Below, in pieces: positions 2,027-61,900 of a stretch of DNA of 64,000 nt. A program made the translations under genes and the position numbers. The first letter of the stretch is position 1; every line of letters starts with the position of its first letter. The notes beneath the pieces are model-generated. The model was not told the origin of the DNA, searched no databases, and saw nothing but the letters and a program-made list of their open reading frames with translations. The stretch spans positions 5,715,501-5,779,500 of the forward strand of contig OX637394.1 of NCBI GenBank assembly GCA_951799425.1, given 5' to 3'. Origin of the DNA: Ilex aquifolium (lineage: Eukaryota; Streptophyta; Magnoliopsida; Aquifoliales; Aquifoliaceae).

Positions 2027-4377
2027 TCACTTCAAGGATTTCTCTATCTCAATCACAAATCGATACTTCACGTCTCTCTTCACTAGCCTCTTAAGAGCTT
2101 CATTTATATATTGGATTGAAATCAGTTCAATCTCTGGGTATATTTTGTGAGCTGCACATAAATCTAACATTTCTTGCCTCTCTTTTAAACCACCTGTTAC
2201 ACTCCCGGAAATCGATTTCATACCTGCTACCCAGAAAAAAATAATCAAGAATTCTCTTTACAACTATGACTAGGGTTGGGAAATCACATATTCTAGTCAC
2301 GCATGCTTCACAATTACGAGTTTTTTTGTTTTTTGTTTTTTTGGTGTAATTCACAATTACAAGAGTCTTATGCATGTTCCAAGAAAATATAGCTGCCATA
2401 ATTATCTTGAGTTCAAGAAGTTTGGTGATACAAGTACCTCTAAGAAGACTGATGGGACTGAGCTTGACTTCACTTGGGGCGCCAACCAAGACGAGGGTTC
2501 CAGCAGTCTTCAACAGGGCCATTTATGGATCAAATGGGTGATCCCCAGAAGCTGTGTCAATTATAAAGTCCAATGAATTTGCCAGGGCCTGCATACAAGT
2601 GGATCAAACTTTTACATGCCCTGTTTCTCAAATTGTTCATTATGGCACTTTAAGGCTGGCTGATAACATCTTATTCCGGAAGTAACGGACTTAGATCCCC
2701 TACAATACATTTTTTTTTCAATTTTTATAGATAAATCAAGTGACATGATTTTAAGTCAGGACTCATTATAGATATGCAGGTCGGTGGGTGTTTCACCATT
2801 GAGATGGAAATTATGGAACAACATCTGGAATTCGAAATCCATAAGTAACTCATATCATTTACCTTCATCTGTTGTTCATCTGATGAGACCACAAATTTGT
2901 CAGCTCCAAGAAGATTCAGAGCTTCCTCTTTCTTAGACATGCTTGTGCTGAACACCGTTACATTCAATCCAAAAGCCTTCCCAAACTTGACAGCCAAGTG
3001 ACCAAGGCCTCCAAGCCCTATCACCCCAAGTGATTTTCCAGGTTGGTTCATCTTGTGCCTCATCATGGGACTGTACACAGTAATTCCAGCACACAACAGG
3101 GGAGCTGCTGAGGCCAATGGGTAGCCATCAGGTATTCTGAAGCAGTACCTGTAAGTCCAAAACAATAGCAGTACCCACTTAACTTTGATTCAGATATGAA
3201 ATTTAGGAGTATATAAGAGCTACTTATAACTCATTTAAAGCCGAGTTATGACTCAAAAAGGTTAGTAATTGACTCAATTGAGTCAAGTTACGACAATATT
3301 CATTTGAGAACAAAGTAACTACTTTTCGATTGGAACACATAACTTAGTGGGATTCAAATTAAGGATGGATAAGGGAATGACAAATATGTCTAGCTTGCCA
3401 TGACTGGGGGTTACCTTTCATGAACAACATAGTAGCTGGAATATCCACCTTTTGTGACAGAACCATCCACATCAACAGAGTTAAATGTGAGTATTGCTCT
3501 TTTTTCGCAATGGACTTCCCCATCAACATTGCAATTTTCACATTCCTTGCATGAGTTAACATACGTTCCAACTCCGACATGTTGGCCAACTTTGAAACGA
3601 TGGACATTGGAGCAAACCTCTTTCACAACTCCAGCAATTTCATGTCTGCTCAAATATAGTCTCATCAGACATCAGTTGATGAAAAATATGAGTAACCCTT
3701 CTTTGTATTATCTGAAATATTTCAAGTGTAATTTGGGCATATCAATCCTAACTAACCCGAAATATTTAGTATTTGGTCAATGATTCAAGTATTTGGATTG
3801 GATTTGGACAAAAATATCTCAATCCGATTCAAGTACTCAAGTTGTGGCTTCTGATTTTTGAAATCTAAGCCGAACTATAGAATTCAAGATTAATGGGTTG
3901 TGTACTCTTAGAATCAATACCCAAATTGCACTCGATTTGACAGTGAATTTCAGCCCTAAAATACTTCAATTTTTAACCCAAATGAATCGGATTTGAGTTG
4001 AATTCCCATACCCTGGCACCAGAGGATACATTGCATCCCCAAATTTATTCCTGGTCCATATTACATCAGCATAACATACCACAATGAGTAATTGTTAGCA
4101 AAACATCGTCATCTCCAACTGCCCTGTATTGGGTTTTATCCCCAGAGTTAAAAGGGTCAGTAAATCTGTGTAATATGCTGCCATGTACAAAAATTGAAGC
4201 CCGCAAAGAGAAGAAAAAGATCCCAGAAAACGAGCAGAGAGAGAGAGAGAGAGAGACTGTCAATAGGAAAAATATAAGCAAGTTTTCATACCTTCGTGCA
4301 AACTTGTAAGGTGAGAGAAACCCAGATGAATCTCTTGCTGCCCATCCAAGACAGTCCTCCTTCACTTCTAAACTCAT
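2027..4377 (-). pseudogene. CAD1-class alcohol dehydrogenase copy A, broken
   Basis: A zinc-dependent medium-chain alcohol dehydrogenase of the Arabidopsis CAD1 class. Exons, from the start codon down: 4292-4377, 4012-4123, 3415-3645, 2863-3148, 2438-2588, 2027-2223. All splice sites are GT-AG and match the three sister copies. Two lesions make it a pseudogene. Two bases present in the sisters are missing from exon 2 (near 4,078), inside the GVCYAD motif at the catalytic-zinc Cys46, and the frame stops four codons later. In exon 5, Tyr261 is a TAA stop (near 2,527). It also has Gly78 changed to Cys. The other exons read cleanly, including the GLGGLG cofactor motif, so inactivation looks recent. 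TATA box and leader are intact, so it may still be transcribed. Confidence 0.9.
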
Positions 4378-11060: not shown

Positions 11061-13342
11061 TCACTTCAAGGATTTCTCTATCTCAATCACAAATCGATAC
11101 TTCACGTCTCTCTTCACAAGCCTCTCAAGAGCTTCATTTATATATTGGATTGAAATCAGTTCAATCTCTGGGTATATTTTGTGAGTTGCACAGAAATCTA
11201 ACATTTCTTGCTCCTCTTTTAAACCACCTGTCGCACTCCCGGAAATCGATTTCATACCTGCCACCAAAAAAAAATATATCAAGAATTCTCTTTACAACTA
11301 TGATTAGGGTTGGGATATCACATATTCTAGTCAGTCTTCTTTTTTTTGTGTGTCCTTCACAATTACAAGAGCCTTATGCATGTTCCAAGCAAATATAGCT
11401 GCCATAACCATCTTGAGTTCACGACGTTTGGTGATACAAGTACCTCTAAGAAGACTGATGGGACTGAGCTTGACTTCACTTGGGACGCCAACCAAGACGA
11501 GGGTTCCAGCAGTCTTCAACAGGGCCATGTATGGATCAAATGGGTGATCCCCAGAAGCTGTGTCGATTATAAAGTCCAATGAATTTGCCAGGGCCTGCAT
11601 ACAATTGGATCAAAGTGTTACATGCCCTGTTTCTCAAATTGTTCATTGTGCCACTTTAATGGTTGGCTGATAACATCTTAATCCAAAGTGACGGATTTGG
11701 ATCCCACTTGACATGATTTTAAGTCAGGACTCATTACAGATATGCAGGTCGGTGGGTGTTTCACCATTGAGATGGAAATTATGGAAAGGCATCTGGAATT
11801 CAGAATCCAGAAGTAACTCATATCATTTACCTTCATCTGCTGTTCATCTGATGAGACCACAAATTTGTCAGCTCCAAGAAGATTCAGAGCTTCCTCTTTC
11901 TTAGACATGCTTGTGCTGAACACTGTTACATTCAATCCAAAAGCCTTCCCAAACTTGACAGCCAAGTGACCAAGGCCACCAAGCCCCATCACCCCAAGAG
12001 ATTTTCCAGGTTGGTTCATCTTGTGCCTCATCATGGGACTGTACACAGTAATTCCAGCACACAACAGGGGAGCTGCTGAGGCCAAAGGGTAGCCATCAGG
12101 TATTCTGAAGCAGTACCTGTAAGTCCAAAACAATTGCAGTACCCACTTAACTTTGATTCAGATATGAAATTTAGGAGTATATAAGACTTACTTATAACTC
12201 ATTTAAAGCCGAGTTATGACTCAAAAAGGTTAGTAATTGACTCAATTGAGTCAAGTTACGACAATATTCATTTGAGCACAAAGTAACTACTCTTCGATTC
12301 GAACACATAACTTAGTGGGATTCAAATTAAGGACGGATAACGGAATGACTAATACGTATAGCTTGCCATGACTGTGGGTTACCTTTCATGAACAACATAG
12401 TAGCTGGAATATCCACCTTTTGTGACAGTACCATCTTCATCAACAGAGTTAAATGTGGATATTGCTCCTTTTTCACAATGGACTTCCCGATCAACATTGC
12501 AATTTTCACATTCCTTGCATGAGTTAACATACGTTCCAACTCCGACATGTTGGCCAACTTTGAAACGATGGACATTGGAGCCAACCTCTTTCACAACTCC
12601 AGCAATTTCATGTCTGCTCAAATATAGTCTCATAAGACATCAGTTGATGAAAAATATGAGCAAACCCCTCTTTGTATTATCTGAAATATTTTAAGTGTAA
12701 TTTGGGCATATCAATCCTAACTAACCCGAAATATTTAGTATTTGGTCAATGATTCAAGTATTTGGATTGGATTTGGACAAACATATCTCAATCCGATTCA
12801 AGTACTCAAGTTGTGGGTTCTGATTTTTGAAATCTAATCCGAACTATAGAATTCAAGATTAATGGGTTGTGTAATCTTAGAATCAATACCCAAATTGCAC
12901 TCGATTTGACAGTGAATTTCAGCCCTAAAATACTTCACTTTTTAACCCAAATGAATCGGATTTGAGTTGAATTCCCATACCCTGGCACCAGAGGATACAT
13001 TGCATCCCCAAATTTATTCCTGGTCCATACTACATCAGCATAACATACTCCACAATGAGTAATTGTTAGCAAAACATCGTCATCTCCAACTGCCCTGTAT
13101 TGGGTTTTATCCCCAGAGTTAAAAGGGTCAGTAAATCTGTGTAATATGCTGCCATGTACAAAAATTGAAGCCCGCAAAAAGAAGAAAAAGATCCAAGAAA
13201 ACGAGCAGAGAGAGAGACAGACTGTCAATAGGAAAAATATAAGCAAGTTTTCATACCTTCGTGCAAACTTGTAAGGTGAGAGAAACCCAGATGAATCTCT
13301 TGCTGCCCATCCAAGACAGTCCTCCGTCACTTCTAAACTCAT
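11061..13342 (-). CDS. CAD1-class alcohol dehydrogenase copy B
   Basis: NADP-dependent zinc alcohol dehydrogenase related to cinnamyl alcohol dehydrogenase, probably cytosolic. Exons: 13257-13342, 12981-13094, 12383-12613, 11831-12116, 11444-11594, 11061-11257. They join into an uninterrupted 354-residue protein, close to the 355 of Arabidopsis CAD1. Visible motifs: catalytic-zinc ligands Cys46, His68 and Cys163 (LLCAG); structural-zinc cysteines 99, 102, 105 and 113; cofactor motif GLGGLG at 188-193; and a STSxxK loop typical of NADP preference. The C-terminus is [13 protein letters not shown]. Classical CADs have CHTDLH at the active site; here it is CYADVV, so the relay Thr and His are replaced. 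Native substrate is uncertain. A solo LTR separates its TATA box from the ATG, so expression may be altered. Confidence 0.9.
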
Positions 13343-18045: not shown

Positions 18046-20546
18046 TCATTTCAAGGACTTTTCTATCTCAATCACAAATCGATACTTCACATCTCTCTTC
18101 ACAAGCCTCTCAAGAGCTTCATTTATATATTGGATTGAAATCAGTTGAATCTCTGGGTATATTTTGTGAGCTGCACAAAAATCTAACATTTCTTGTTCCA
18201 CCTTTAAACCACCTGCTGCACTTCCGGAAATCGATTTCATACCTGCCACCCAGAAAAAAATATATCAAGAATTCTCTTTACAACTATGATTAGGGTTGGG
18301 AGATCACATATTCTAGTCAGTCTTCTTTTTTTTGTGTGTCATTCACAATTACAAGAGCCTTATGCATGTTCCAAGTAAATATAGCTGCCATAACTATCTT
18401 GAGTTCAAGAAGTTTGGTGATACAAGTACCTCTAAGAAGACTGATGGGACTGAGCTTGACTTCACTTGGGGCGCCAACCAAGACGAGGGTTCCAGCAGTC
18501 TTCAACAGGGCCATGTATGGATCAAATGGGTGATCCCCAGAAGCTGTGTCAATTATAAAGTCCAATGAATTTGCCAGGGCCTGCATACAAGTGGATCAAA
18601 GTGTTACATGCCCTGTTTCTCAAATTGTTCATTGTGCCACTTTAATGGTTGGCTGATAACATCTTAATCCAAAGTAACGGATTTGGATCCCACTTGACAT
18701 GATTTTAAGTCAGGACTCATTACAGATATGCAGGTCGGTGGGTGTTTCACCATTGAGATGGAAATTATGGAAAAGCATCTGGAATTCGGAATCCAGAAGT
18801 AACTCATATCATTTACCTTCATCTGCTGTTCATCTGATGAGACCACAAATTTGTCAGCTCCAAGAAGAGTCAGAGCTTCCTCTTTCTTAGACATGCTTGT
18901 GCTGAACACTGTTACATTCAATCCAAAAGCCTTCCCAAACTTGACAGCCAAGTGACCAAGGCCTCCAAGCCCTATCACCCCAAGTGATTTTCCAGGTTGG
19001 TTCATCTTGTGCCTCATCATGGGACTGTACACAGTAATTCCAGCACACAACAGGGGAGCTGCTGAGGCCAAAGGGTAGCCATCAGGTATTCTGAAGCAGT
19101 ACCTGTAAGTCCAAAACAATAGCAGTACCCACTTAACTTTGATTCAGGTATGATAAGACTGATGATTTGATATCACCATGGCACTGAGTTCAGCACCGTA
19201 CCGCAATTTAGGAGTAAATAAGAGTTGCTTATTAACTCATTTAAAGTCGAGTTATAACTCAAGAAAGGTTAGTACTGGACTCAATAGAGTCAAGTTATGA
19301 CATTATTCGTTTGAGCACAAAGCAACTACTTTTTGATTCGAACACATAACTTAGTGGGATTCAAATTAAGGACGGATAAGGGAATGACTAATATGTATAG
19401 CTTGCCATGACGGTGGGTTACCTTTCATGAACAACATAGTAGCTGGAATATCCACCTTTTGTGACAGTACCATCCACATCAACAGAGTTAAATGTGTGAA
19501 TTGCTCCTTTTTCACAATGGATTTCCAAATCAACATTGCAATTTTCACATTGCTTGCATGAGTTAACATACGTTCCAACTCCGACATGTTGGCCAACTTT
19601 GAAACGATGGACATTGGAGCCAACCTCTTTCACAACTCCAGCAATTTCATGCCTGCTCAAATATAGTCTCATCAGACTTCAGTTGATGAAAAATATGAGT
19701 AACCCCTCTTTGAATTATCTGAAATATTTCAAGTGTAATTTGGGCATATCAATCCTAACTAACCCGAAATATTTAGTATTTGGTCAATGATTCAAGTATT
19801 TGGATTGGATTTGGACAAAAATATCTCAATCCGATTCAAGTACTCAAGTTGTGGCTTCTGATTTTTGGAATCTAATCCGAACTATAGAATTCAAGATTAA
19901 TGGGTTGTGTAATCTTAGAATCAATACCCAAATTGCACCCGATTTGACACTGAATTTCAGGCCTAAAATACTTCAATTTTTAACCCAAAAATTGAACTGA
20001 GTTTCGGTCCATGTTCGGTAACTGAGTTCAAAAAAATTTAGACACAAGTAGTGCTTGAGTTGAAGGGTTTGGATTAAAAATCGGATTTGAGTTGAACTCC
20101 CATACCCTGGCACCAGAGGATACTTTGCATTCCCAAATTTATTCCTGGTCGATAATACATCAGCATAACATACTCCACAATGAGTAATTGTTAGCAAAAC
20201 ATCGTCATCTCCAACTGCCCTGTATTGGGTTTTATCCCGAGAGTCAAAAGGGTCAGCAAATCTGTGTAATAATAACAATATAGCAAGAAAGTAAACTCCA
20301 ACTCAATTGTTCATAAGCTCAAAGACCAGTTATTAGAAATATATGCTTTAAGATGTGATCTACTACACAAAAATACTAAAGAAAATGCTATTTGTGTCCA
20401 GTCTATACAATTAGGTCTAAGTAGCGTTGGTCGATCGAAAATAAAAGCAAGTTTTCATACCTTCTTGGAAATTTATAAGGGGATAGAAAACCAGATGAAT
20501 CTCTTGCTGCCCATCCGAGACAGTCCTCCTTCACTTCTGAACTCAT
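18046..20546 (-). CDS. CAD1-class alcohol dehydrogenase copy C
   Basis: Same enzyme family and gene structure as copy B. Exons: 20461-20546, 20106-20219, 19422-19652, 18817-19102, 18430-18580, 18046-18242, giving 354 uninterrupted codons. The start is [19 protein letters not shown], with PRR instead of ARR at the exon 1/2 join, a feature shared only with copy D. Zinc ligands Cys46, His68 and Cys163, the four structural cysteines and GLGGLG are all present. The codon joining exons 2 and 3 is GGG here and GGA in the others, still Gly67. Intron 3 has about 55 extra bases near 19,150-19,205. Intact TATA box and a short leader with an upstream ORF. The best candidate for a normally expressed copy. 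Confidence 0.9.
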
Positions 20547-24084: not shown

Positions 24085-24742
24085 ATAGGCAGCAATATAA
24101 AATTTGTAGCTAGTTAAGCCCAAATAGAGCTATTCTGGCTTATTGGTTTACATAGAAGGCAAGAAATGAATGGGTGTATAATTATCATGTACCTCAGTGC
24201 AATACAGTGATCCATAGAGCTATTCTAGTGGCAGAAGAGGTCTATCTGGATGGATGACTCCACCTGAAGAGTGGATGAAAATCAACTCTGATGGGGGTTT
24301 CTTGCAGAAGTCTAGGATAGGAGCATATGGCGTTGTTAGAAATGAGGATGGGGTTTTTATAAATGGGAATGCCAGATCTTTTGATTCTTCTTCTGCATTA
24401 GTTTCTGAGGCTTGTGCAGTTAAGAGAGCTTGCAAAATGGCATTGAAACTTCAGCTTCAAGGAATAATCATAGAATCAAATTCAAAGGCTCTGATGGATT
24501 CAATATGCAAGGGCATCGAAGTTACAATTAAAAATATTGCACCAATTCAACAAGATACATGGTATTATGCAGAACAGATTCCCCAGATCAAGTTTCAAAT
24601 AATCAAGAAGAACCAGAACAAGGTGACTCATACACTAGCAGGTTTGACTAGAAGAGGTAACCTTTACCCTCATTGGGTGACTCACCTCCCATCATGTCTG
24701 AGGAGTGTTCTTAGAGAAGAGGAAAGAGCTGGTGTTGGCTAA
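24085..24742 (+). pseudogene. RNase H-like relic of a LINE reverse transcriptase (unit 3)
   Basis: A 162-codon frame from 24,254 reads as a plant RNase H-like domain: KINSDGG (first catalytic Asp), a GAYGVVRNEDG strand, SEACAVKRA (catalytic Glu), IIIESNSKAL and HTLAGLTRRG. The usual third acid in ESDS is Asn here, so catalysis is unlikely. Upstream in another frame is KARNEWVYNY, the segment that normally precedes this domain in LINE ORF2, so a frameshift lies near 24,250. It is therefore a decayed LINE 3' piece, not a host enzyme. The sister copy at 40,280 is nearly identical, so the relic was already there when units 3/4 duplicated. Confidence 0.7.
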
Positions 24743-30662: not shown

Positions 30663-31830
30663 ATGCTTGAACCAAATTTATTTTGGGGAAAACTTGTCTT
30701 GAAGGGCATTCTTGGTATTATAAAAAAAAATTATGACATTCTCTTTCAAGTTTCAACGCCCACATGCATGAAGGCCTTAAGAAGATATGCTTCAGTTGTG
30801 GCTCTCCTGGTCATGACACTGAAGCTTGCAGCGCATCACCAGCTACTGTCATGGATTCCCAACAAGAACAAGCAGCACAAAGGCAGCAGGGGCAGATATA
30901 CAAGCTCCAAAACAAAGAGGAAGAAACATTTGGTTCTTGGCTTCTAGTCCAACACAAGAAACCACGAACAGTGATCAACAAGGAAAAACTTAGAAATAAT
31001 TCCAATTCTAAGCAATCACGTAACAACTTTACTCCTACGGGCAAAACAGATTGGAGGAAAAAGGCTGAAGGTAATTTACATTCAACGGGTTCTACAGAAC
31101 AAAATCAGCCCCATCTCAAGGATCATGACACTGCCAAAAGTCTAGAAGGTACAGACAAAGCAACAAGTTTGTTATTCTACGCTAGTGAAAGAAATTGTTA
31201 GGCCAAAAGAAAAGTCCTCATCCCTTAATACAGAAGTTCCACTTGAGAATCAATTCAGAGTGCTGCAAGAGGAAGACAATCATGAACCTTCAGTGAATCT
31301 ACCTAACCGACTCCAATCCATTGCTGAGGAAGACATCTAGAAGGTTGAGATGGAACATGATAAAGAAACAGAAAGCAAGGGGGATGAATCTGATAAAGAG
31401 GATGATGTGCACGACTTAGTCTCTTATGAATCTGAAGATTCAATGGATGAATGTTACATGGAACTGGCTTCAGCAAAACTTTCATTAACCAAGATGTTTC
31501 AAAGATATGGATCAAAATCTTGCAAATCATTCTTCGGACGAAAGAGTTCAAGATGAATTGTCATTAAACGGCGTAAATAACACTAGAGGAAGAGGGTGGT
31601 GTGAATAGATTGATATATTCCTTGCATAGCCTCACGACTTGCAGGATGACATTGGATTTTCTTTATATCCTAGTCTATTTAATCTCTTTGACCTACTTTA
31701 AGTTTTTAGACTAGGTTGAGAATTTTCTTGTATAGCCTCCCGGCATGCATCAAGCCTCGATGCTTGATTATATTTTGTACTCTTTTTTCCCTTAATCTCA
31801 ATTTATATTTAGCACAAAAAAAAAAAAAAT
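30663..31830 (+). mobile_element. LINE relic: ORF1 zinc-knuckle part fused to a 3' tail
   Basis: A 145-codon frame at 30,764-31,201 contains CFSCGSPGHDTEAC, a CX2CX4HX4C zinc knuckle, then FGSWLLVQHKKPR, which is typical of plant L1-type LINE ORF1 proteins (nucleic-acid binding). Acidic and basic stretches follow to about 31,556, with stops between them. The reverse-transcriptase region is absent. The sequence jumps to a LINE-like 3' end (TTTTGTACTCTTTTTTCCC) and an A-run at 31,818-31,830. So it is internally deleted. It lies between the start of unit 4 and CAD D and is absent from unit 3. Confidence 0.7.
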
Positions 31831-32788: not shown

Positions 32789-35174
32789 TCATTTCAAGGA
32801 CTTCCCTATTTCAATCACAAATCGATACTTCACGTCTCTCTTCACTAGCCTCTCAAGAGCTTCATTTATATATTGGATTGAAATCAGTTCAATCTCTGGG
32901 TATATTTTATGAGCTGCACAGAAATCTAGCATTTCTTGCTCCTCTTTTAAACCACCTGTTGCACTCCCAGAAATCGATTTCATACCTGCCACCCAGAAAA
33001 ATCAAAAATAAAAAATTCTCTTTACAATTATGACTAGGGTTGGGAGATCACATATTCTAGTCACGCAAGCAATTTGTCCGCATTCTTCACAATTACAAGT
33101 CTTCTTTGGTGTGTGTGTGTGCCTTTCACAATTGCAAGTTTTACAAGTACCTCTAATAAGACTGATGGGACTGAGCTTGACTTCACTTGGGGCACCAACC
33201 AAGACGAGGGTGCCAGCAGTCTTCAACAGGGCCATGTATGGATCAAATGGGTGATCCCCAGAAGCTGTGTCAATTATAAAGTCCAATGAATTTGCCAGGG
33301 CCTGCATACAAGTGGATCAAACTGTTACATGCCCTGTTTCTCAAATTGTTCATTATGTCACTTTAAGGTTGGCTGATAACATCTTAGGCCAGAAGTAACG
33401 GACTTGGATCCCCTACAATACATTTTTTCTTCAATTTTTATAGATAAATCAAGTGACATGATTTTAAGTCAGGACTCATTATAGATATGCAGGTCGGTGG
33501 GTGTTTCACCATTGAGATGGAAATTATGGAACAACATCTGGAATTCGAAATCCATAAGTAACTCATATCATTTACCTTCATCTGTTGTTCATCTGATGAG
33601 ACCACAAATTTGTCAGCTCCAAGAAGATTCAAAGCTTCCTCTTTCTTAGACATGCTTGTGCTGAACACCGTTACATTCAATCCAAAAGCCTTCCCAAACT
33701 TGACAGCCAAGTGACCAAGGCCTCCAAGCCCTATCACCCCAAGAGATTTTCCAGGTTGGTTCATCTTGTGCCTCATCATGGGACTATACACAGTAATTCC
33801 AGCACACAACAGGGGAGCTGCTGAGGCCAATGGGTAGCCATCAGGTATTCTGAAGCAGTACCTGTAAGTCCAAAACAATTGCAGTACCCACTTAACTTTG
33901 ATTCAGATATGAAATTTAGGAGTATATAAGACTTACTTATAACTCATTTAAAGCCGAGTTATGACTCAAAAAGGTTAGTAATTGACTCAATAGAGTCAAG
34001 TTACGACAATATTCATTTGAGCACAAAGTAACTACTCTTTGATTCAAACACATAACTTAGTGGGATTCAAATTAAGGACGGATAACGGAATGACTAATAC
34101 GTATAGCTTGCCATGACTGGGGGTTACCTTTCATGAACAACATAGTAGCTGGAATATCCACCTTTTGTGACAGTACCATCTTCATCAACAGAGTTAAATG
34201 TGGATATTGCTCCTTTTTCGCAATGGACTTCCTGATCAACATTGCAATTTTCACATTCCTTGCATGAGTTAACATACGTTCCAACTCCAACATGTTGGCC
34301 AACTTTGAAACGATGGACATTGGAGCCAACCTCTTTCACAACTCCAGCAATTTCATGTCTGCTCAAATGTAGTCTCATCAGACATCAATTGATGAAAAAT
34401 ATGAGCAAACCCCTCTGTGTATTATCTGAAATATTTCAGGTGCAATTTGAGCATATCAATCCCAACTAACCCAAATATTTAGTATTTGGTCAAAGATTCA
34501 AGTAGTTGGATTGGATTTGGACAAAAATATCTCAATCCGATTCAAGTACTCCAGTTGTGGATTATGATTTTTGGAATCTAATCCGAACTATAGAATTTAA
34601 GATTAACGGGTTGTGTAATCTTAGAATCAATACCCAAATTGCACCCGATTTGACAGTGAATTTCAGCCCTAAAATACTTCTATTTGAGTGGAAGGGTTTG
34701 GATTAAAATCGGATTTGAGTTGAACTCCCATACCCTGGCACCAGAGGATACTTTGCATCCCCAAATTTATTCCTGGACCATAATACATCAGCATAACATA
34801 CTCCACAATGAGTAATTGTTAGCAAAACATCGTCATCTCCAACTGCCCTGTATTGGGGTTTATCCCCAGAGTCAAAAGGGTCAGCAAATCTGTGTAATAA
34901 TAACAATATAGCAAGAAAGTAAACTCCAATTCAATTGTTCATAAGCTCAAAGACCAGTTATTAAAAATATATGTTTTAAGATGTGATCTACTGCACAAAA
35001 ATACTAAAGAAAATGCTATTTGTGTCCAGTCTATACAATTAGGTCTAAGTAGCGTTGGTCGATCGAAAATAAAAGCAAGTTTTCATACCTTCTTGGAAAT
35101 TTATAAGGGGATAGAAAACCAGATGAATCTCTTGCTGCCCATCCGAGACAGTCCTCCTTCACTTCTGAACTCAT
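32789..35174 (-). CDS. CAD1-class alcohol dehydrogenase copy D
   Basis: Exons: 35089-35174, 34734-34847, 34128-34358, 33576-33861, 33151-33301, 32789-32985, giving 354 uninterrupted codons. Zinc ligands Cys46, His68 and Cys163, structural cysteines and GLGGLG are intact. It is a mosaic: exon 1, exon 2 and the leader match copy C; exon 3 and part of intron 3 match copy B ([11 protein letters not shown] and the ATACGTATAGC intron word); exon 4 and intron 4 match copy A, including an intron insert near 33,412-33,459 that B and C lack. Intron 5 has a unique deletion next to exon 5. The C-terminus has EIGKSLK instead of EIEKSLK. The TATA box is altered, so expression is uncertain. Function as for copy B. 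Confidence 0.9.
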
Positions 35175-48285: not shown

Positions 48286-48293
48286 TATAAATA
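48286..48293 (+). promoter_or_regulatory. TATA box of the bZIP-type gene
   Basis: TATAAATA in a GC-richer context. It is followed by a leader of about 650 bp with CT, TG and TCTTC repeats. A TTTTTAG acceptor-like site at 48,950 suggests a 5' UTR intron, but its donor could not be fixed. Confidence 0.55.
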
Positions 48294-48970: not shown

Positions 48971-51900
48971 ATGATGGATATGAAAAAAAGAAATGTTGTG
49001 GATGATGATTTCGAATCAACTTTCGAAGACTTCGAAAAGTACTTCACATCATCAGATCCTTCTTTCCTTTCATTAGAAAACCTTCTTAAGGACAAGACCG
49101 AAAGTTTGCCATTATTTGAATCCAATTCTGAAAATGGATTAAATCCAACTATTCCGATCCCTAATTCCGGCAGATCAATCGTCAGTCAAAATGTTCCGGC
49201 CAACGGACAGAACTTTCTTCCGACCAACGGACAGAACTTTCTTCCGATCAACGGACAGAACTTTCTTCCGACTTCTGGGTTTACAAATATGCCTTCCGGT
49301 GGCCATGGTACCATCAGCTCAATGTCGGACTCAACTCCACCAGTTGTTAGCCAATTTAGTCCACAACTCATAGAGAACACCCTCCCATATAGGATTATCA
49401 ATTCAATGCCAAACTTCGAGCCACCACAAGCTCTCAGCCTAAATCTTTCATCAAATAGTGTAAACAGTCTCTTGGACAGTTTTAAGTCTTCGAATCAGAA
49501 GGAAAGAATCAATAGAATGCCTTCTTCTATACCAATTGATAGGCGTGGCAATGGCATTGCTTTGACCACGAGGGGCTCATCTTCTATGGCACCCCAAACT
49601 CGGCCACCAAGGCAGGCCCTCGGAAAACAACCCTTGCCACCACCACCACCACCTTCAGGCGGTGCAGGTCAAGAAGGTCGATGGAGGATCAGAAAGACGC
49701 CTCCGGCAATGCTGGAGGAACCTGCAGAGACTGATGGACAACGGTTGAAGAGGTATAGTTCAAAAATATGTATATATCTTGTCTCCATGTTTTTTATTGT
49801 TTATATGAGATGTATCCCAAAATTGGCAGCTCTTTACTTGTTACTTACTTAGGGTTTGGTGCATGCTTATTTATCGATTTTACGTATTTAAGTATTCATA
49901 TTATTTCATTGCTAGTTGAGCGTCACATGTTTAAGTTACGTAAAACAGTCCATCATACAAGGGGTAATGAAATCTCGTTCTCTAACTTGCTCTTTATGTT
50001 AGTTGGACTATTCTGACTGAGTTGGATGGTCGGGGAATGCATAGTTATTGCCAATACTTTTAAATATAAACATTATATCTGTGAAAAATATGTGTATTAA
50101 TTTATGTAAGAGAAGCATAAGAAATGGTACAAAAGTGTTTAATGTTACAAGTTGAGCATATGTAGAGTACATTATCATAACATTTTGTACAGCTGAATGG
50201 CTGCACATATTAATCTACATGATATTTATTGTGAGTGGACAAATAGAAGCTGTGAAACATATACCTCTAGGGATACTACTCTTTGTTAAAGCTTTTGCCT
50301 CTGCTAGCCAGCTCCACATCTGTTGAATACTCTTATGATTCTATGTTGATGCTTTATCATTTCTCGGTAATTAATGAAAAATCATCTCAACCACGTATCT
50401 CTTTTAAACTCATAGTTACAACAAAAACGTGGGATGCACGCAATCCCCACTAATCACGTGCATCATGTTACATACAATTTTATATGGCCAAGAAATGTCA
50501 AATTTAAGACGTCTAAATCCACAATTGGACTTTTATTCCAGCAGTGTATATGGGGTTCTTTGTTGGCCAGATCCACCTTTGGAACTCTTGTTCAATATAA
50601 TAGCTTTGTGATTTCTGTAATGTTTCCTTCTTTCAACTAACTAATATGTCATTCATAATAGAATCATGATCAACCGGACGCCGACTATTGAGGCAAAGGA
50701 GGAGAAGAGGTTGTCTCTGTTTGAGCTTGAACAAAAACAAAAAAACTTGCAAGCAGAATCCATGAACTTTTCTGCACGATTACTGCAAATGAAGGTAAAC
50801 CGATGCGTTTTTCACTTCCATAGTTGTTCCAAATGATAAAATCTTGCTTAGCTACCATTTGGAAATCATTTTCTAATGTACTTCCTTGGTTTTTATGTTT
50901 TAAAGTATGTTTTTTAAGTAGCGTTTAGTTTATGTATTTATTTTTAAGTTTCCCTTACATAATAGTAAACATGTACTATATATATTAGTGTATTATTCTT
51001 GTACTAACATTAATATTGGCCACTTTAATTGTATATGATCAAAGATGTTTTTGCTTTATGAATAAATTGTTTCTTGGCTTAAGAAAATTTACTTGAAAGA
51101 ACGTTACCAACCATTACCTTACTGAGTATTTATCAAAGTGGGTTATTTTCCTAAGCTTGTTTTGACCAATTTATATTATATTTCATCTGATAGAGAGAGC
51201 CGATCAGGCTGGATGCTTTGAACTACAACATGAAACAACGTTGGATTAATGCCGGGGAACAACTTCGGCTGCAAAACTGTAAGGGTTTCTTCTGATATTG
51301 CCTCATTGCATGGATCACCTGAGAATCATATAGCTCACATAATCTACTATCTGATGCTTCTTCACTTTTATACTGCTGTGAAACAAAAACTGTTGAAGTA
51401 TATTAATACTTATGCTATACACATCTCATAGATTTGCTGTTATGAGTTTGTGAGTTGATATGATATCATATACGTTCGCCACTTTATATTTAAAAAGACT
51501 TGCAAGTGTGACTCAATATAGGCCCACAGGTGAGGGGACGCATTAAAGTTTAAATATAAAAACTTATAGAAATAGTTTTGTTACAAGCTATCTACAACTT
51601 AAGTTTCTTGGTGATATTGTGGTTTTAATAATATCATAAAGACAGATGTACTTTAGCAAAGAATTTGTTGCGAAAAGTAAGTTGCCTTGCAGTGGTAGCT
51701 ATATGGTATGTTTCCAGCCAGTTAGGTTTATTTGCCATATTTCTTCTAGTTAGAACCTTTCTGTCTGCTTAGTTGCTGTCTTGCAGATTAAAGTAACTCT
51801 TAGTCCTACTACTCTTAGTTTTACAGCCAAATGATCTGTGGTTGCCAATATATCTTGCAGTAAGAAGATATAGAAGTAGGGCACTTCATGCACTTTAGGG

Positions 51901-53431
51901 TGATTACAGAAAAGTAGTATAGTCCGTACTACCTATATGTAATCAGTTTAGCTTAGAGCTGTTTGTTGAAATATACAGTTTTCACTCGGATTCTCCTCTG
52001 GTGGATCGAGGCATATTGGTGACTTCTGTTTTTTCCCTCTCATGTTTACTTTTTGGAAAGTTAGGTTACATATATCACTGCATCTTTTATATTTCCTGAG
52101 GCTGAAAACTTAATAAACTACAACTAAAGTCCAACTTCCTTCAATAGATTGTTCATTCTATATTGTAAAGAGAATTGATATGTTACTATATGAACACCAG
52201 CGGGCCTTTGGTCCAATAGTACTCCTTACCTTGTGAAGGTTTTGCCTTCTTAAGGTCAAGGCTTCAAGCCTCTTTCCCTCCTCCCCCTCCCCTTCCCCCC
52301 CAAAAAAAAAAACTAAATGAATAAAAAATCCAATAACGTAATTATAGGAAAATCCAAGGTAGATGATAGAAACTCCTTTTAATGATGTGTTAAATGCACT
52401 ACACTTGGTTTCTGCTGATGCATTTTGGGTGTCTAAAATCAATCTTGAAATGAAGCTTAGCAATTATTGTTGCTCAAGTCAATAGGCACCATGGCTACAT
52501 ATATCTCCATAATATGGGTGTATGCAATTTATAGAAACAGTTTCTAAAGAAAGCTCCTTATATATAGCACCTTTTTGCTATCCACATCAAATGTTTCTTT
52601 TTTGTTACACTGGCAGCTTTGAATGAAGCCAAGAGAAATGATGTCAAGAATAAAGGAATCCCTGGATTCGGTAATCAACATTGGCCCCTGACCGGCCTCG
52701 GTTCATCCTTTCGAGATAGGAGTCCTACGATGCACGGTATATCTGCCATGGCAGCGCCTTCACAATTTCATTTGCAATCTCTTCATAAGCAGCAGCAGCA
52801 GCAGCCAAGCTTTGCATCCATCAAGAACAACAGCTCTGGATTACTGGAAGACCTTGTCATGAACCAACAGCTCACTCCGATTCCTAATCAGCACCAGCAC
52901 CAGAACCAGCAGCACCACCACCACCCCTCACCCAGCCTCAACTATCATGAAGTGTATAATCCCCCAGACATAAACCAGTCACCTGAGCTCCAAGTTAAGA
53001 TGCCACAACAGCTTCAACAACCGAATCTTTCGTTCCATCCTGACCACAGTCCTCTAATGATGAATGCTATTCCTCTCACCATGCCACAATCTGCAAGTAA
53101 TCAAGTTCAGAGTACTCCATTTGAGCAGGAGCTACCAGAATTAGATCTACAAGAGCTTAAGGGTTTGCTTCAATTTCCAGCTGAGTTTGAGCAGGAACAA
53201 TGCTTTTGGCTTCAACAACTGCAATCAAAACATGGGTCTTCACAGCAAAATCAGGTTCAGATTCAATGTGAGCAGGCAAAACCTATCAATCCTGAACCTC
53301 ATGTGCAACCACAAATTCAGCCAAATCAGCTTGGTTATGATCAGATTCAACATGAGCATGGACAGTCTAATCAGTTTTACCAGCTCCTGCAACAACCATC
53401 TCAGCCACAGCAGAATAGGTGGTTTCATTAG
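48971..53431 (+). CDS. bZIP-type protein, VIP1/RF2/bZIP29-30 group, divergent basic region
   Basis: Exons: 48971-49752, 50662-50794, 51194-51278, 52617-53431, joined by GT-AG introns into 604 codons. The start is the first ATG of MMDMKKRN after a likely leader intron. Exon 1 is Ser/Pro/Asn-rich with three NGQNFLP repeats and a poly-Pro stretch. Exon 2 holds the basic region and the start of the zipper. Exon 3 continues the zipper (LDALNYNMKQRW) and exon 4 opens with SLNEAKRNDVK, where relatives have ALNEALKEEV. The rest is Gln/His-rich, as in this group. Asn265, Arg266, Lys273 and the spacing to Leu283 are canonical, and heptads run Leu283, Leu290, Phe297, Met304, Leu311, Met318. The core DNA-reading residues QSAAR are TPTIE, with a proline in the helix. 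It would be nuclear; DNA binding is doubtful, and a dimer-partner role is possible. Confidence 0.85.
49201..49272 (+). repeat. Three in-frame 24-bp repeats in bZIP exon 1
   Basis: Three copies of CAACGGACAGAACTTTCTTC plus four bases, differing at one position. They encode NGQNFLPT, NGQNFLPI, NGQNFLPT. Recent slippage expansion inside the coding region. Confidence 0.9.
49753..52616. other. Introns of the bZIP-type gene
   Basis: Introns 49,753-50,661, 50,795-51,193 and 51,279-52,616 are AT-rich with no recognisable element. A run of C then A near 52,290-52,312 may mark an old inserted fragment. Confidence 0.5.
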
Positions 53432-53739: not shown

Positions 53740-55955
53740 TTATTTTTGTGGATGGCTGGTAATTTCGTGTAGTTTTGTGTGGTTTATATGTTTTATTACT
53801 TAGTTACCTTGTCAATTTATGTAAACATCTGATTGTGTGATGGGAATCGTATATGAATTGGATAGATATTATAGATTAATTATGATAGTTATTTAAATAC
53901 TTTTAATATTTATCTTTTAAGTAATTTCTTTTAACTTGTGAGGATTTATTTGTTATTATTTATTTATTTTAGAGTTCTTTTAGGATTTGTGCTCTCCCTT
54001 TGTATATAGGGAATATGGTATTTGTTTTAGACTAGACTTTTGATTATTATTGATTATTGATATTGAATCATTCTTCCTTAAATTCTCTCTCTGTTCTCAT
54101 CCCCTTCTTCTTTTCTCATCTCTTTCTTCTTCCTTTTTCATCTCTAATTCTTCCTTACTACGAGCTACATCATTGTGTCTATGGAATTTTCATATGTGCT
54201 CCGGTTCATTTTATATATATGTTGCAGTGGTTCGGTGTTTTGCCTTTGCTTCATTTTTGCACTGCCGATGCATATATATATAGTTGTGATTAATAATGGA
54301 TATAGGGAGATGAGCTTGACGATGAGTCTATGGCGTCAAAATATGACACGATATTCGTTTTTGTAAATGAGTGAACCGATCCGATGTGATTAATAAATGA
54401 ATCGGGTATATGTGAAGTCAATCAAAAGAAATATACTACACGACTTATTTATAGATCTGTTATATACGATTTATACACAACAGAGTCTAATATAACACAA
54501 TTTGTTAGACATGAATTAATAAACAAATCGGGTATAAATGAAATATTTTTGTATACAAATCAACTAAGATGTAAGACGAACTCGTCTCATCCGACACGAT
54601 CTGACTTACCCTCAAAGATTTGAAAAGACTGCCCACTTAAATTAAAATCCTAGATTCGTACCTAAGTACGAGATTGAAGTTTGATAATGTTGGTGGACTC
54701 ACCTATGCAGCCTATGAATTTGTTGGATATTTATGTTATGTTTTTTTTTTTTTTTTTCCATTGTACATGGCGCTTTCAACTATTTTTGTTAAAAAGATGT
54801 TGTCTTATCTTCATATTTGGCATGTAGGTGAAAATTACTATACCTGCGTGCCGTGTTGTCCAGTTTAGACAACGAGAGCCTTCTTCTGTTTCTATGTTAT
54901 AAATAGTGCTATACTTAGCCAAGAAATTATCAACTATTTTATACTAAATGGTTAGATTTATGAGTTTTATTTATTTGTTAATGATCGACTAATGTGAATG
55001 TACCACATCACTTGATATACGCATAAAACATTATTCGATAAAAAAAACCGCACCAACACCACTTAATGACATTGAAATTACGGTTAGCCACGGATTAAAG
55101 GGCTTAAGTCCATACACTACTCATTTTCTAGCACATTTTGACTAATTTTTTCTTCGGGTCAGTTAAAAATAGGTTATGTATGTCGGGATTAAAGTATTCA
55201 TGAGGGATAACAAAATTTGACCTGATCCCAAAAAATTGCTAATACTCGAACTCAAGGCGTCTGCGTTTCTAGTTCGTTTTTGTTATCACTTGAACTACAT
55301 TTGAAATTTTGACAAATCACATTCATCGTAGATAAATGGGTCCCTCTTTAATGCTAAATTTAACCTTGTTCATTTTGTGGCGATTTTGTGTCGTATACTT
55401 CGCTCGTGCCTAGATTTGCTAGCCAAGCGGCAACGAACTATCAAAGCGTGTGTGCAATATATAGGGGGTCATCAAAAACATTTTCCCAAAGTATTAAGGC
55501 CACTACGCGAATTTGCAAATATATCAGGGACCTCATCTGAAATAAATCGAAATCAAATAAAGGACTAAAATGAGAGCCGCGAGACAGTGAGCGAGCGAGA
55601 GGACGGGAAGATGAAGAATGTGAGAAGAAAGCAAGAAAGGGAAAAGAACTAGTCTGCAATGATCTTTTCAAAACCCTAATAAATCAAAGCTTCGTCCCCT
55701 CTCTGATTTGAATGTAAACATATATATGTTCATACATATGATAGCTCAAATACATATAGATAGACCCATGATTGTTCGATAAATCACTCCTTAAATCAAC
55801 TCTCTTCTTTATCGTCTTCATTTTCATCACTGTAATTTCGACCTTGTTGCCCCTCCGATCGTCTCCAATTTTCAGATCCACTCACTCATAATTGCCCTAC
55901 TGTGAGGGGGCAATTCCTCTCAGATCTGCCAAAAGCAAATTCAAAAGCCCCATCA
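53740..55955. other. Intergenic DNA and auxilin leader
   Basis: No gene between the hairpin and the auxilin start. 54,350-54,620 contains GAATCGGGTA and ACACGA words like those of the hAT-type elements, with no clear ends. A weak TATATA is at 55,458-55,463. GAGA-rich sequence near 55,570-55,650 probably belongs to the auxilin promoter or leader. Confidence 0.45.
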
Positions 55956-58900
55956 ATGGACGACCTTGATATCTTAGCCAGAGACTTTGGGTTTAGACCT
56001 CAAGGCAAATCCAACCCTATGAAATCATCCAGTCTCCGATCCGACGGTCCTCCCCCTCGCTCCGCTGCTCGATCCTCAACGATCTCATCCTCACCGTTCA
56101 TCGATGACAGTCACAACGATCCATTATTCAACGACGTCTTCGGTGGACCACCGAAGTACACAAACAGCAATAAAGAGAAGTCTTCGTCGCTCTCTGATTT
56201 TGATTATGATTCAATGTTCAAGAGCACAGGGACAAATGAATCGAAGAATAAATCAGCTTCGGCGGTGCCCGTTTACGATAAGCCGGTGTATGATGACGAT
56301 ATATTCGATGGACTGCCTGGGTTGAAGAGCAAGTCGACGTCGGCTTCGGTTAGGTATGATGAGAATGTGTTTGCGTCGATGGCTTCACCACCAAAGCAGA
56401 GTGATCAGTTTGATGATATTCTTGGGAATTTGGGAAGGACCGAGAAGGTGGAGTCGAGGAAGAGTAAGAGTTCGAGGGGTTTGGATGATCTGTTGCCTGG
56501 GTTTGGTAGTGGCGATCCAGCCAGTAATAGTAGCAGGTATTACATTTATGTATTTGGAGTCTTCATATTTAACTGCTTACATGCTCAAGTGGGTTTAGAT
56601 GTATTGACATGTTGTGAGGTGATCATTGTTCAAGTGGGCTTATATTTCAGACAATATTTGTTTAGGAGAATTATATTTTGTTTAGTTAGTACGTGATTCA
56701 AGTTAAATTGTTATCAATATTTTGTATATTTAGTTCATTGAGAGGTATAGGAATCAATAATGTGGTTATTCACACACGCATGGGCCTTTTTTTTTCTTTC
56801 CAAATTTAATAGGATTTTGAGGAACATTTTAAAATGTAGGAATATGTGCATACCAACTCAAGGTTAAATAAGTTGTATGAAATTAACAAAGCTTTCCTAT
56901 CGAAAAAAGCAATGGACAAAGCTTCTAACTTGAATTTGTAATGATATGCGTATCAAGTGTTAACTGTTTGTACCAGATAGTGCCTTGGAATTCAAGTTAT
57001 AAACACTAGTAATATTATTATAATCGCCGTCGAGCATGTCAGTATCTGTACGATCACGCATATAGTTAAAGTTCATTATAAATATGCACATTAGGGTTTT
57101 GTCTGGATGAATACTTTACATTCCTAACTCTAGGAAGCCCTTTCACCTCATGGGTGATGTTATGCATGGTGTCAAGTGTTCGTACATAGAAGATGTTATG
57201 CAAGATTGATAATGTCCTGCATTATCCATCTATGTATTGTTTTTTGCTTTGACCGCTACTGTTAGAAGTTCTGGGATTGGCATTGAACGCCCTTGTCAAA
57301 TTTCATTGCGCATCCCAACATAAACGAACATGGATCCAATGTTTTGCTTTGATGAACTATATAACATGATTGGGCACATTGGAGGTAATAGTGCCCAGAA
57401 TATTTTGCAGGTTCCTTTGGTAATCTTATCGTTATTAGGAGGGCTTGGAGTTTTTAATTGACAGTAATATTTGATGTGTGAGGAGGGTTTGCTTCTCTTT
57501 GGGAAGTTTATTTTGTGTGTTTAGGGGTGTTTGAGGAATCATCAGCAGCGATAATTTGCAGAAACTTCCAGTATTATTTTGTTACATGACGGAAAAATAT
57601 AGCCACGTGCTCGAACTGTACAATTTTTAATGTTTAGTAATCTGTTTACATTTGTATGAGATGAAAAGCTTGGCATGCTATGAAAGGAACTCAACTAATG
57701 TTTAAAAGTACTGTGGTAAACTCCTTTCAAAAGCTCCTCTGAAGAAAGTTAGCCATTTGCCATTAGATATGGTGACAAAGTATTTCGGTGTTTTTCCGCA
57801 GTACACTGAATCACATGCAATAGTTTCTCTACAGTTGTACAGAAATGAGAAAATGTGTGCATGTGTGTATTAATTTGGATGTCCATTTCGACATTGTCTT
57901 TTCAGTTTTTTTTCTCTCTCTCACCTTTGGAAATAATTTTTAAGTTTTGGCTAAAAGTTCTTCTTTTGAAGGTTCTTTTTTTCGTATTAGAGGGAAAGAA
58001 ATTTTTTTGTCTTTCCAAAAGGATAATAATTAGAAGAGAAAAAGGAACAATTTTTTCAAAGTAAACATTACTTGCTTGAAAGATTTACATGTAACAGGAA
58101 TCCATGAATAGTCATCTTCGCTGTGTTTGGGAAGGATAATTTCTGAGAAATGTTCTAGAAACTTGCAGATTAAATTGGAGTAGATTAACTTTTGAATTAC
58201 TTTCTCTCCTATGCTTCTGAAAAATCTCCTCATATCAAAGTACTTGTTTGCAATGATCAAAATTTCGTTTTGGTACATTATTTCGATTATTTAGGAAATG
58301 GAAACGATTTGAAAACGAATAAAAAATTAGGGAATATATTTTCAACACATTTTGAATCATTGGTCGAAATGTAATGAAACGTGTTGAAACAGCTCAAAAC
58401 AGTGGTGGAAACATATTGAAATATTTTAATACATTTTGAAACACCGTGAAACACCTCAAAACATTGGAATTTCAATTCTATCACTAAATCGTTTCGGTCC
58501 CCTTGGAAACAAAACGTTTCGACCGTTTCGAAACGAAATTTTGATCCTTGCATGCGTGCCAAAAAGTACAAATTTTATGGCCAAAAGAAGTTCTTGCTGC
58601 TTTATCCAATCCAACACTTAATATAGGGTAAAATGGGGTTTATTATCTTATGGCGTTCTATGGCATGCTTGGACTTTTGCTTCAGAGTGATGTTTAGATT
58701 CTTCTGTATGTCTTTGCATTATCATCCACTTTGGTATTATGTCTTGGAACTATGAAGGCATTGTAGAGGAGATGAGGCTAACAATTCTCTAGAAATCATA
58801 TAAACCATTTATTGTAACGTACATGGCATGCATGCCGTCTAGTTTGCCATATTTGGATATGTCTTTATCACGTGCTGCACAATGCTCAATGTTTTTGATA

Positions 58901-61900
58901 GGTGTCAGTTGATAATGTTCAGCTTCATGTTTCATTTTGCACAGGCCAATTCCAGATTCAAGTCAACCCCCGAGGTCAACTGGCAGTACAAATCAAACAA
59001 CTTCTACTGTGATGGATGACCCTTTTGTAGTTTTAGAATCAACTTCAACTCCTGCGGCTTCATCCACAGGGTTGTTTACAGATCCACTGGAAGAGATTGG
59101 TAAGCTTGGTAAATCTGGAAACACAAAGGCTGACAATTCATCTGTTGGGGGAGGAGTATTTGATGATATAGATCCCCTCAATGGTTTTGGCAAGTCTGTG
59201 CCTGCATTTTCCACCGAGAGGAATAACAGGGGGAAGGATGGGAGCCCTTCAAGGGCAGGATCAAGCATGAGTGGGAATCAAACTTTTGTTAGTAGAGAAC
59301 AAACTGGGAAATCTTCTTCTAGATTTTCTGAGAGCCACTTGCAGAAGAAGGTTCCTGATGACAATTTTCAGGAATTTCCTCAAACCCACTTTGACATGCC
59401 CACTGTTTCAGCTGATTCACATACATCTTTCAATCCAACTGCTTCTTCCCCTTTGGATGTAGATGCTTACTTTAATGAGACACACTCCCAGGTAGATATG
59501 TCTCTGAGATCGGAAGAACAAGTGCAGTCATCTGATGATGTATGGCTTTCAGTATCAGAGATCCCACTTTTTACACAACCTACAAGTGCTCCACCACCTT
59601 CAAGACCCCCTCCTCCAATACCCAGGCAGGGTTCAAAATCAGAAACAGTTTTCTTTTCTTCAAATGCTAGAAAGAAGGGTGAAGAATTTTCTCCTTCCCC
59701 AACTTACACTCATTACTCTCAAAGTCCTAAACTCTTCCATCCTGCAGTGAAGAGCTCTGTAGCTTCTTCAACAGATGAACTTGAGGATTTTGCCATGGGT
59801 AGAGCCCAAAATAACGTCGATCAAAATACCAATGTTCAATCTGGTGAGGAAATGAACACGAACTCTGCAGCAGCAGCAGCTATGAAGGAAGCTATGGATA
59901 AAGCTGAAGCAAAGTTTAGGCATGCAAAGGAAGTAAGGGAGAGAGAATATGCAAAGGCTGCTAGAAATAAAGAAGCTGTGCAGCTGGAAAAAGATGAACA
60001 GACCATGCAAGAAGCGCAAGAGAGAGAATTCAACGAGAACCAGGAGCGATCAGATCATGAGAGGCGACAAAGGGAAAAGGAAGAGGAAGAGAGAGAACAG
60101 AGGAGACTTGAGAGGGAGAGGGAGAGAGCAAGGGAAATTGAAAGGGGAAGGGGCAGACAAGCAGTGGAAAGGGCTACTAGGGAAGCACGGGAAAGAGCAG
60201 CGGCAGAGGCTCGCGAGAGAGCAACTGCTGAAGCTCGGCTGAAAGTTGAAAGGGCTGCAGTTCAGAGAGCACAAGCTGAAGCCCGTGAAAGGGCAGCAGT
60301 GGAAGCTAAAGATAGAGCAGAAAAGGCTGCTGCAGAAGCAAGGGAAAGAGCAAATGCAGAAGCAAGGGAGAAAGAAACGAGGGAGAAAGCTGCTGTTGCA
60401 AGGGCCGAAGCTGATGCTCGACGTAGAGCAGAACGAGCTGCTGTTGATAGGGCTGCCGCAGAAGCCCGTGAGAGGGCTGCTGCTACAGCAAGAATGAACC
60501 AACAAAAGAATGATAATGATCTTGAATCCTTCTTCAACATGGGATCTCGAGCAAGCAGTGCACCGAGGCCAAGGGCAAATCCTTCGGTCAGTACAAAGGC
60601 TGCTGCATAGGCCATCTACATACTGAGTTCTGTCACAATGTAGTGTTGTTCATTGTGTGTTTGTCATTTGTTTGATCCCTATTTTCAGGACCCTGTTGTG
60701 GATCCGCAACCCCAGGGCAGGGCAGCACCTGAAGCTGCTAGGCAGACATCTTCTTCAGGTGGTGCCTCATCCAATTTGAGAAAAGCATCTTCCACCACTA
60801 ATATTGTTGATGATCTTTCTTCAATTTTTGGAGGTATGTCATATCTATTTAATTTGGTAAGTCCTTTTCTTGCTAATTTGTCACTTGCTGAACAATCTAC
60901 TTTCACAAGGTGCTCCTTCATCTGGAGACTTCCAAGAAGTTGAAGGGGAAAGTGAAGAAAGAAGAAGAGCTAGACTACAACGCCACCAACGCACTCAGGA
61001 GCGAGCGGTACATCTTTTTCTGCCACAAGATGTTTGTAATTTGTGTTAACATGTCCAAGGATTAGTTGAGTTCTGAATCTTAGTTTTCTGTTTCTTTTTG
61101 GTTTTGAGTAGGTAGCTCAGAATCTGAGTTTGAATGTTTATACAGGAAGTTATACTAGTATATTTGTTGTTTTTTTGCTTGCCCTTTGGCTTCTCAGTAT
61201 TGATTGATGTGTTTGTTTGCTCAGGCTAAAGCAGTGGCTGAAAAGAATCAGCGTGACCTTCAAGTTCAGAGGGATCAGGAAGAAAGACATGTAAGTACCT
61301 TAAGCATCTTAAAATATATTTCTGGGCCTTTGACTTTTGCCTCCATAGATGGACGAAAATGCCATGCCCTCACTTCATTCTACAAAAACATTGGGACTTC
61401 ATATATCTTCTGTGGTCCTTCATCCTTCATCGGGGTTCATCCCTTTCCATCCAAACCTTACCCCTCCAAATTACTAACAGGGACAGTATTGGGTGTTGTT
61501 AATTTGATGGCATCATCAGGATTTCCATTAACTGCATCAATGAAACCCTACTTCTGGCACTTGCTATTAACAAATCTTCATCATTGTTGTGTAACACTAA
61601 ATGGTGTTTGTTATTGCCTTCGCTACAATATTTCTTGGATCATCTATAGCCATCTTACTATTCTTAGTCCAACCTCCAACAGCTGCAATAAATGGTAACA
61701 TAGGCACCACTATTCTGGCCTGTTTGTGACTCATAAATACTTAGGCATCTCTCTGAATCTCTCAATTTAAGTTTATGGTCCGCACCCGGACAAATACAGA
61801 TTTTTCTAGCAGCATTGATTTTGGCTTTTCATCTTTTTGGCAATCCATCACCTATGTTATCATTATCTTGAAACTTGCTTGACGTTTTTGTGAGTTTTTA

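Follow-up and report, generated by a model that had tools for sequence, protein, structure and literature searches.

The 64,000-nt window of the Ilex aquifolium genome analysed here (C4:5715501-5779500) contains a real, intact gene that differs from its relatives. Sequence comparison identifies the gene as a group I bZIP gene by descent, and its 604-residue product has TPTIE in place of the QSAAR core of the basic region. Loss of ordinary DNA reading by this protein is well supported by paralogue comparison and structural modelling. Our tentative reading, to which we assign a probability of about 0.42, is that this group I paralogue no longer reads DNA, but pairs with normal group I proteins and blunts them.

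The gene lies on the + strand at 48971-53431, and its four exons join across three GT-AG introns into a frame of 604 amino acids followed by a stop, with no internal stop. The initial annotation had described an open 604-codon frame with clean splice sites, and splicing the four exons confirms it. The features discussed in this work are the following:

48286..48293, + strand: TATA-box-like sequence TATAAATA upstream of the gene, read in the sequence; putative
48971..49752, + strand: exon 1, covering residues 1-260 plus two bases of codon 261; open frame, with codon use that is coding in this frame only
49001..49039, + strand: DDDFESTFEDFEK, which may correspond to the acidic motif of group I (EDDLFSTFMDIEK in the paralogue L040)
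49194..49272, + strand: 24-nt tandem repeat, 3.3 copies, in frame (NGQNFLPx), 94% matches, from Tandem Repeats Finder
49694..49752, + strand: last 20 codons before the intron, KTPPAMLEEPAETDGQRLKR, counterpart of the paralogue stretch ending DPKRAKR
50662..50794, + strand: exon 2, 133 nt, encoding the basic region and the first heptads of the zipper; 30-39% identical to the 11 paralogues
50672..50677, + strand: Asn265-Arg266, kept; read in frame and in the paralogue alignment
50678..50692, + strand: TPTIE (residues 267-271), replacing the QSAAR of all 11 normal paralogues found
50696..50698, + strand: Lys273, the group I lysine, kept; read in frame and in the paralogue alignment
50726..50728, + strand: Leu283, the first zipper leucine, read in frame
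51194..51278, + strand: exon 3, 85 nt, remainder of the zipper
51200..51202, + strand: Pro308, which occupies a zipper a position past the fourth d position
52617..53431, + strand: exon 4 with the stop, Gln-rich C-terminal part (52 Gln in 271 residues)

According to a codon-use score whose reference was the first exons of eight paralogues, all four exons code in the annotated frame only. GC content is 45% in the coding sequence and 27-35% in the gene's introns, and a first-order model of that coding sequence gives a 604-codon open frame a chance of 6e-11. The marks of a processed or decayed pseudogene are absent, with introns retained and 604 codons open, and the gene is presumably expressed.

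Our search for relatives ran a canonical group I query against the genome (800 Mb). It returned 11 strong exon-2 loci at 73-98% identity, whereas the exon studied here reached just 39% (E = 4.75). A profile built from nine of these normal paralogues (L036 was left out for a wrong exon 4 pick, and L045 because its exon 3 was not found) gave the bZIP region 39.5 bits, against 17.7 for the best shuffle (19,965 scored of 20,000 made), and in a fixed-register comparison none of 5,000 shuffles was as good for exon 2, for exon 3 or for the beginning of exon 4; this likeness to group I therefore far exceeds chance. Of the 43 columns that are invariant among the profile paralogues, 16 are kept. The splice signals of exon 2 (AG and GT) stand at the identical 133-nt spacing in all 11 paralogues, and a fitting AG..GT exon 3 is present in 10 of the 11 in a search that demanded exactly 85 nt. 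The gene itself has a phase-2 intron ahead of the basic-region Asn, followed by exons of 133 and 85 nt, and a Lys at basic-region position -10 (Lys273). Most legume group I genes have a phase-2 intron in the basic region (PMC4676100; compared here by phase and region), and Lys at position -10 is a group I trait (PMC5066499). The group I membership claimed by the initial annotation is thus supported by exon lengths and phases and by the profile score.

Within group I, the closest branch is most likely that of the paralogues L042 and L043. The best of five tree placements puts the gene beside these two (lnL -1427.9), with a position inside the branch with L043 at -1429.7 and positions beside the other three branches at -1431.5 to -1432.2. 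Synonymous differences lean the same way (pS 0.63-0.70 vs 0.73-1.00). We treat this placement as a lean, short of proof; in the protein tree the gene sits on a very long branch with no well supported fork. Trees, synonymous differences and dN/dS fits used 10 of the 11 paralogues, with L045 left out. The first exon of L042 looks to us PosF21/RSG-like, not bZIP29/30, and of the narrower assignment to VIP1/RF2/bZIP29-30 we accordingly retain group I and not the bZIP29/30 kind. Group I bZIPs of the PosF21/RSG/RF2a kind, to which L042 and L043 presumably belong, likewise have the same intron places and phases with exons of 133 and 85 nt, the spacing Asn-x7-Lys-x9-Leu, a Gln-rich end and a possible acidic motif; the 604-aa protein differs from them in having TPTIE for QSAAR and a degraded later zipper, and in showing no Pfam match and no counterpart of the HRRAHSE stretch of the L042 first exon. 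A search of the genome with the whole protein returned the gene and a single further match (E 0.61), but it missed the 11 normal paralogues too and so excludes near copies only. A milder second group I outlier, L046 (C4:6761300-6771200), lies 1 Mb off on the same contig; it is 73% identical to the canonical query, has Tyr at one of its zipper d positions and keeps its Pfam match.

The basic-region core reads NRQSAARSKER in all 11 paralogues and NRTPTIEAKEE in the studied gene. Asn265, Arg266 and Lys273 are kept, the distance from Lys273 to Leu283 is canonical (Asn-x7-Lys-x9-Leu), and a proline has entered with the change from QSAAR to TPTIE, all as first annotated. Asn and Lys at these bZIP places make classic base contacts, known from the GCN4 structure; by GCN4 numbering, the other three base-contact places presumably hold Pro268, Thr269 and Ala272, and Glu271 replaces an arginine that, going by the same structure, presumably lies near phosphate. 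Net charge over the 27 basic-segment residues is +3, compared with +8 in L042. Single-sequence AlphaFold2 models of the exon 2 peptide, which, as DNA-free monomers of 44 residues, are no test of whether binding is present or lost, place a helix at 9-43 (starting at Ile270), vs 2-43 in L042. Mean pLDDT was 91.5 in the best of five models and 76.7 in the worst (94.6 and 90.5 for L042), and the first ten residues are the least sure part of the model (mean pLDDT 77). Since the modelled helix starts at 270, Asn265 and Arg266 fall outside it. In place of a continuous basic helix with a conserved core, we thus find TPTIE and a helix predicted to start well after the second residue, where that of L042 starts, in support of the earlier description of a rewritten DNA-reading helix.

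The zipper has fared less well than its spacing suggests. The spacing is canonical, as annotated, with Leu283 and Leu290 present and all six d positions of heptads 1-6 hydrophobic (a modest P of 0.034-0.072, depending on the drift model), but Pro308 and the polar d positions past the sixth heptad are predicted to weaken it: its ten d residues are, in order, L L F M L M A Q K K, where L042 has L L L L L L M Q L L. Counted to column 72, a homodimer of the 604-aa protein would have no attractive and four repulsive g-e' pairs, and a heterodimer with each of 10 paralogues 1-2 attractive pairs and one repulsive pair; paralogue homodimers have 2-4 attractive pairs, with repulsive pairs in L042 alone (two). 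Up to column 46, the protein's own homodimer has two repulsive pairs, and the heterodimers have neither attractive nor repulsive ones. This count, which is crude and involves few pairs, favours heterodimers over the protein's own homodimer, although the normal proteins fit each other better still. Because the paralogues have better g-e' pairs with themselves, the 604-aa protein would be a weaker partner than they are to each other. The initial annotation had suggested a dominant-negative or dimer-only factor; the hydrophobic d positions of heptads 1-6 and the smaller number of repulsive pairs in heterodimers than in the homodimer speak for this, whereas Pro308 and a zipper that diverged as fast as the basic region speak against it, and the dimer-only part is weakened because the zipper is not really intact.

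Outside the bZIP region, the possible acidic motif gives a local alignment matched by 4 of 2,000 shuffles against L040, 59 against L046 and 61 against L042, with no signal against the other five of the eight paralogue stretches (323 to 1,625 of 2,000 shuffles); the comparison took in 8 of the 11 paralogues, and the first exons of L038 and L043 were absent from all comparisons. The 20 residues before the intron share 6-8 identities with each of 9 of the 11 paralogues, a result equalled by 14 of 20,000 shuffles. The 24-nt repeat in exon 1 may be a young expansion. Exon 4 starts with SLNEA, similar to the ALNEA/ALNDA of the paralogues. C-terminal likeness that includes this exon start and the Gln run is equalled by 31 (L042) and 4 (L043) of 2,000 shuffles; without them, 556 and 814 of 5,000 shuffles do as well, and we dropped C-terminal homology to these two paralogues. 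As this likeness is not above chance, no conservation is shown downstream of the bZIP region. We also dropped a candidate EAR repression motif, since the one LxLxL match (LSLNL, residue 155) has its like in 1,874 of 5,000 shuffles of the protein.

The gene has evolved fast. For exons 2 and 3, dN/dS on its branch is 0.88, indistinguishable from 1 (lnL -1427.93 free, -1427.96 at 1), vs 0.074 on the other branches (2 delta lnL 10.2, with the studied gene's branch length at its bound in the equal-rate fit). The dN/dS comparison proposed in the initial annotation was made within paralogues of the same genome. With dN/dS fixed at 0.3, 0.5, 2 or 4 the fit comes within 1.92 lnL units of the best, which it does not at 0.1, 0.15 or 0.2; placed inside with L043, the branch has a dN/dS of 0.66. 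The basic region (0.89) and the zipper (0.87) do not differ, and because the zipper evolved as fast as the basic region there is no sign of dimerisation-specific selection; nothing shows that dimerisation is what selection keeps. These rates are what would be expected of a relaxed paralogue, that is, a duplicated group I gene whose bZIP function is unneeded, whose product, or part of it, retains a minor role, and whose basic-region change is meaningless. Under such a history the absence of stops from exons 2 and 3 would be only mildly unexpected (P = 0.028, in a neutral drift run started from L043 alone). Over the whole frame, however, neutral drift at the fitted distance would leave a mean of about 26 stops in 604 codons, with a minimum of 12 in 4,000 simulations (a run that starts from the gene's own frame and extends to exons 1 and 4 the distance fitted for exons 2 and 3), and we observe none. 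Both bZIP exons also hold the exact paralogue lengths, and a placement beside the other three branches brings dN/dS down to 0.25-0.31, although that fit is 3.6-4.3 lnL units worse. Pure neglect of the whole gene is therefore unlikely, in line with the initial view that this is not simple decay; most of the weight against drift comes from exons 1 and 4, because exons 2 and 3 alone yield only the P value above. A relaxed paralogue is nevertheless nearly as likely as pairing with normal group I proteins.

Other explanations carry less weight. The protein could be kept for a role unconnected with its bZIP region, for example that of the Gln-rich C-terminal part or of the repeat-bearing N-terminal part. 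Most of the open frame lies outside the bZIP region, the acidic motif resembles three of eight paralogue stretches and the 24-nt repeats are in frame, all of which is consistent with such a role; the chance-level likeness of the C-terminal part past its exon start and Gln run is not, and we regard this explanation as improbable. The initial annotation also raised the prospect of a new DNA target, which would have Asn265 and Lys273 still contacting bases in a re-shaped helix. The joint retention of Asn, Arg and Lys has P 0.023-0.052 under the drift models, for a trio picked after the fact, but the modelled helix begins after both Asn265 and Pro268, and the acidic and proline replacements leave a net charge of +3; we find no support for a new target and consider it very unlikely. 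Least probable of all is an artefact, whether a mis-called exon 2, a fault in the assembly or a compensated frameshift. Although the gene is known from the DNA of one genome alone, its divergence spans exons 1 to 4, and the length (133 nt), phase and coding score of exon 2 are all as expected. Scanning the window in six frames for the exon pattern gave no other bZIP exon, hence no hidden normal exon 2; the three matches comprise two in dehydrogenase-copy regions and one in a stop-filled frame. At the DNA level, these results make a mis-predicted exon 2, the earlier worry, unlikely. We rejected the idea that TPTIE arose by a compensated frameshift: with gaps allowed, the alignment to L043 seems improved to the eye, but an equal gain occurs in 15,648 of 20,000 shuffles.

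Directly downstream, at 55836-60610 on the + strand, lies a gene that we take to be auxilin-related; two of its frames have no Pfam match. An auxilin-like copy at C19:7471046 has 80% identity and one stop in the matched stretch. We considered a syntenic second bZIP copy beside it, and rejected this because the 9 kb upstream, on one side, lacks bZIP likeness (tblastn gave at best E 0.26, with stops, and blastn nothing but short matches); as a positive control, the same comparison found the auxilin copy (79% over 1.36 kb). This C19 flank encodes DOMON and, below cut-off, cytochrome b561-like frames. Elsewhere in the window, four alike stretches of a zinc-type alcohol dehydrogenase gene on the - strand (2429-3556, 11435-12524, 18421-19563 and 33142-34269), 84-99% identical to reference pieces, probably form a tandem array of recent origin, and are named from a sub-threshold Pfam ADH_zinc_N match in each of the four frames. 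Retroelement-like pieces on the + strand at 24218-24742 and 30737-31201 contain an RNase H-like frame (Pfam RVT_3) and, by eye, a CCHC zinc-knuckle-like frame.

Returning to pairing with normal group I proteins, we propose that the gene is a protein-coding, strongly diverged group I bZIP paralogue, likeliest from the L042/L043 branch, in which TPTIE would make the helix begin only past Pro268 and put Glu271 in place of an arginine presumably near phosphate, and, with its surroundings, would take the basic segment from +8 to +3 in net charge. Because of this shifted helix start, the replaced arginine and the lost charge, specific DNA binding is most likely lost. What is left over would be some four to six usable heptads that repel one another in a homodimer and fit normal group I zippers better, and because of that better fit the likeliest action would be pairing with normal group I proteins to give half-sited, weakened or inactive dimers. 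We consider it unlikely that selection made the proline-capped, acid-bearing helix segment, and kept Asn, Lys and a heterodimer-only zipper, as a built-in group I inhibitor hidden from Pfam surveys. CHOP/GADD153, an animal bZIP with helix-breaking residues in its basic region that pairs with normal relatives, is a comparison in how such a protein works; it is not a plant group I protein, and the function of the plant protein is predicted only.

Group I members heterodimerise, also group I with group E (PMC5066499, PMC4122391), and a potato TGA factor that lacks the full bZIP acts through other factors (PMC10022624). Heterodimer-based inhibition would be the most economical positive function, in keeping with these precedents. 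The group E proteins bZIP34/61 likewise have a zipper proline and form heterodimers with group I; their proline stands in the third leucine heptad, where it blocks homodimers (PMC5066499), whereas Pro308 comes after the fourth d position and the 604-aa protein also has a rewritten basic region. The potato mini-TGA StTGA2.1 is likewise a plant bZIP relative without a full DNA-binding region that heterodimerises, but it is a truncated TGA factor linked to activation (PMC10022624), whereas the 604-aa protein is rewritten and we propose inhibition.

Pfam bZIP_1 scores 34.7 bits in L042 and 28.8 bits in L046, the most diverged normal paralogue, against a cut-off of 27.6; no family was found at E 1 or less for the 604-aa protein or its exon 2 peptide, and the 95-aa region gave one unrelated sub-threshold match. 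The typical motif is present in all but eight of 585 bZIPs of six legumes, with exceptions described in the Asn, the Arg/Lys or the spacing (PMC4676100), and in olive one protein is listed with a zipper motif and without a basic region (PMC7288668). None of the legume and olive exceptions described there is a rewritten core flanked by a kept Asn and Lys. We found no plant bZIP with a QSAAR to TPTIE change in the open-access literature, which leaves out most subscription papers. Pfam-based counts of bZIPs can thus miss an intact member, and such surveys would not list this gene. If it does pair with group I proteins, it would be a natural negative regulator of a group tied to osmosensory responses, vascular development and root growth (PMC5066499), and bZIP inhibitors could then arise through rewriting of the basic helix instead of through truncation.
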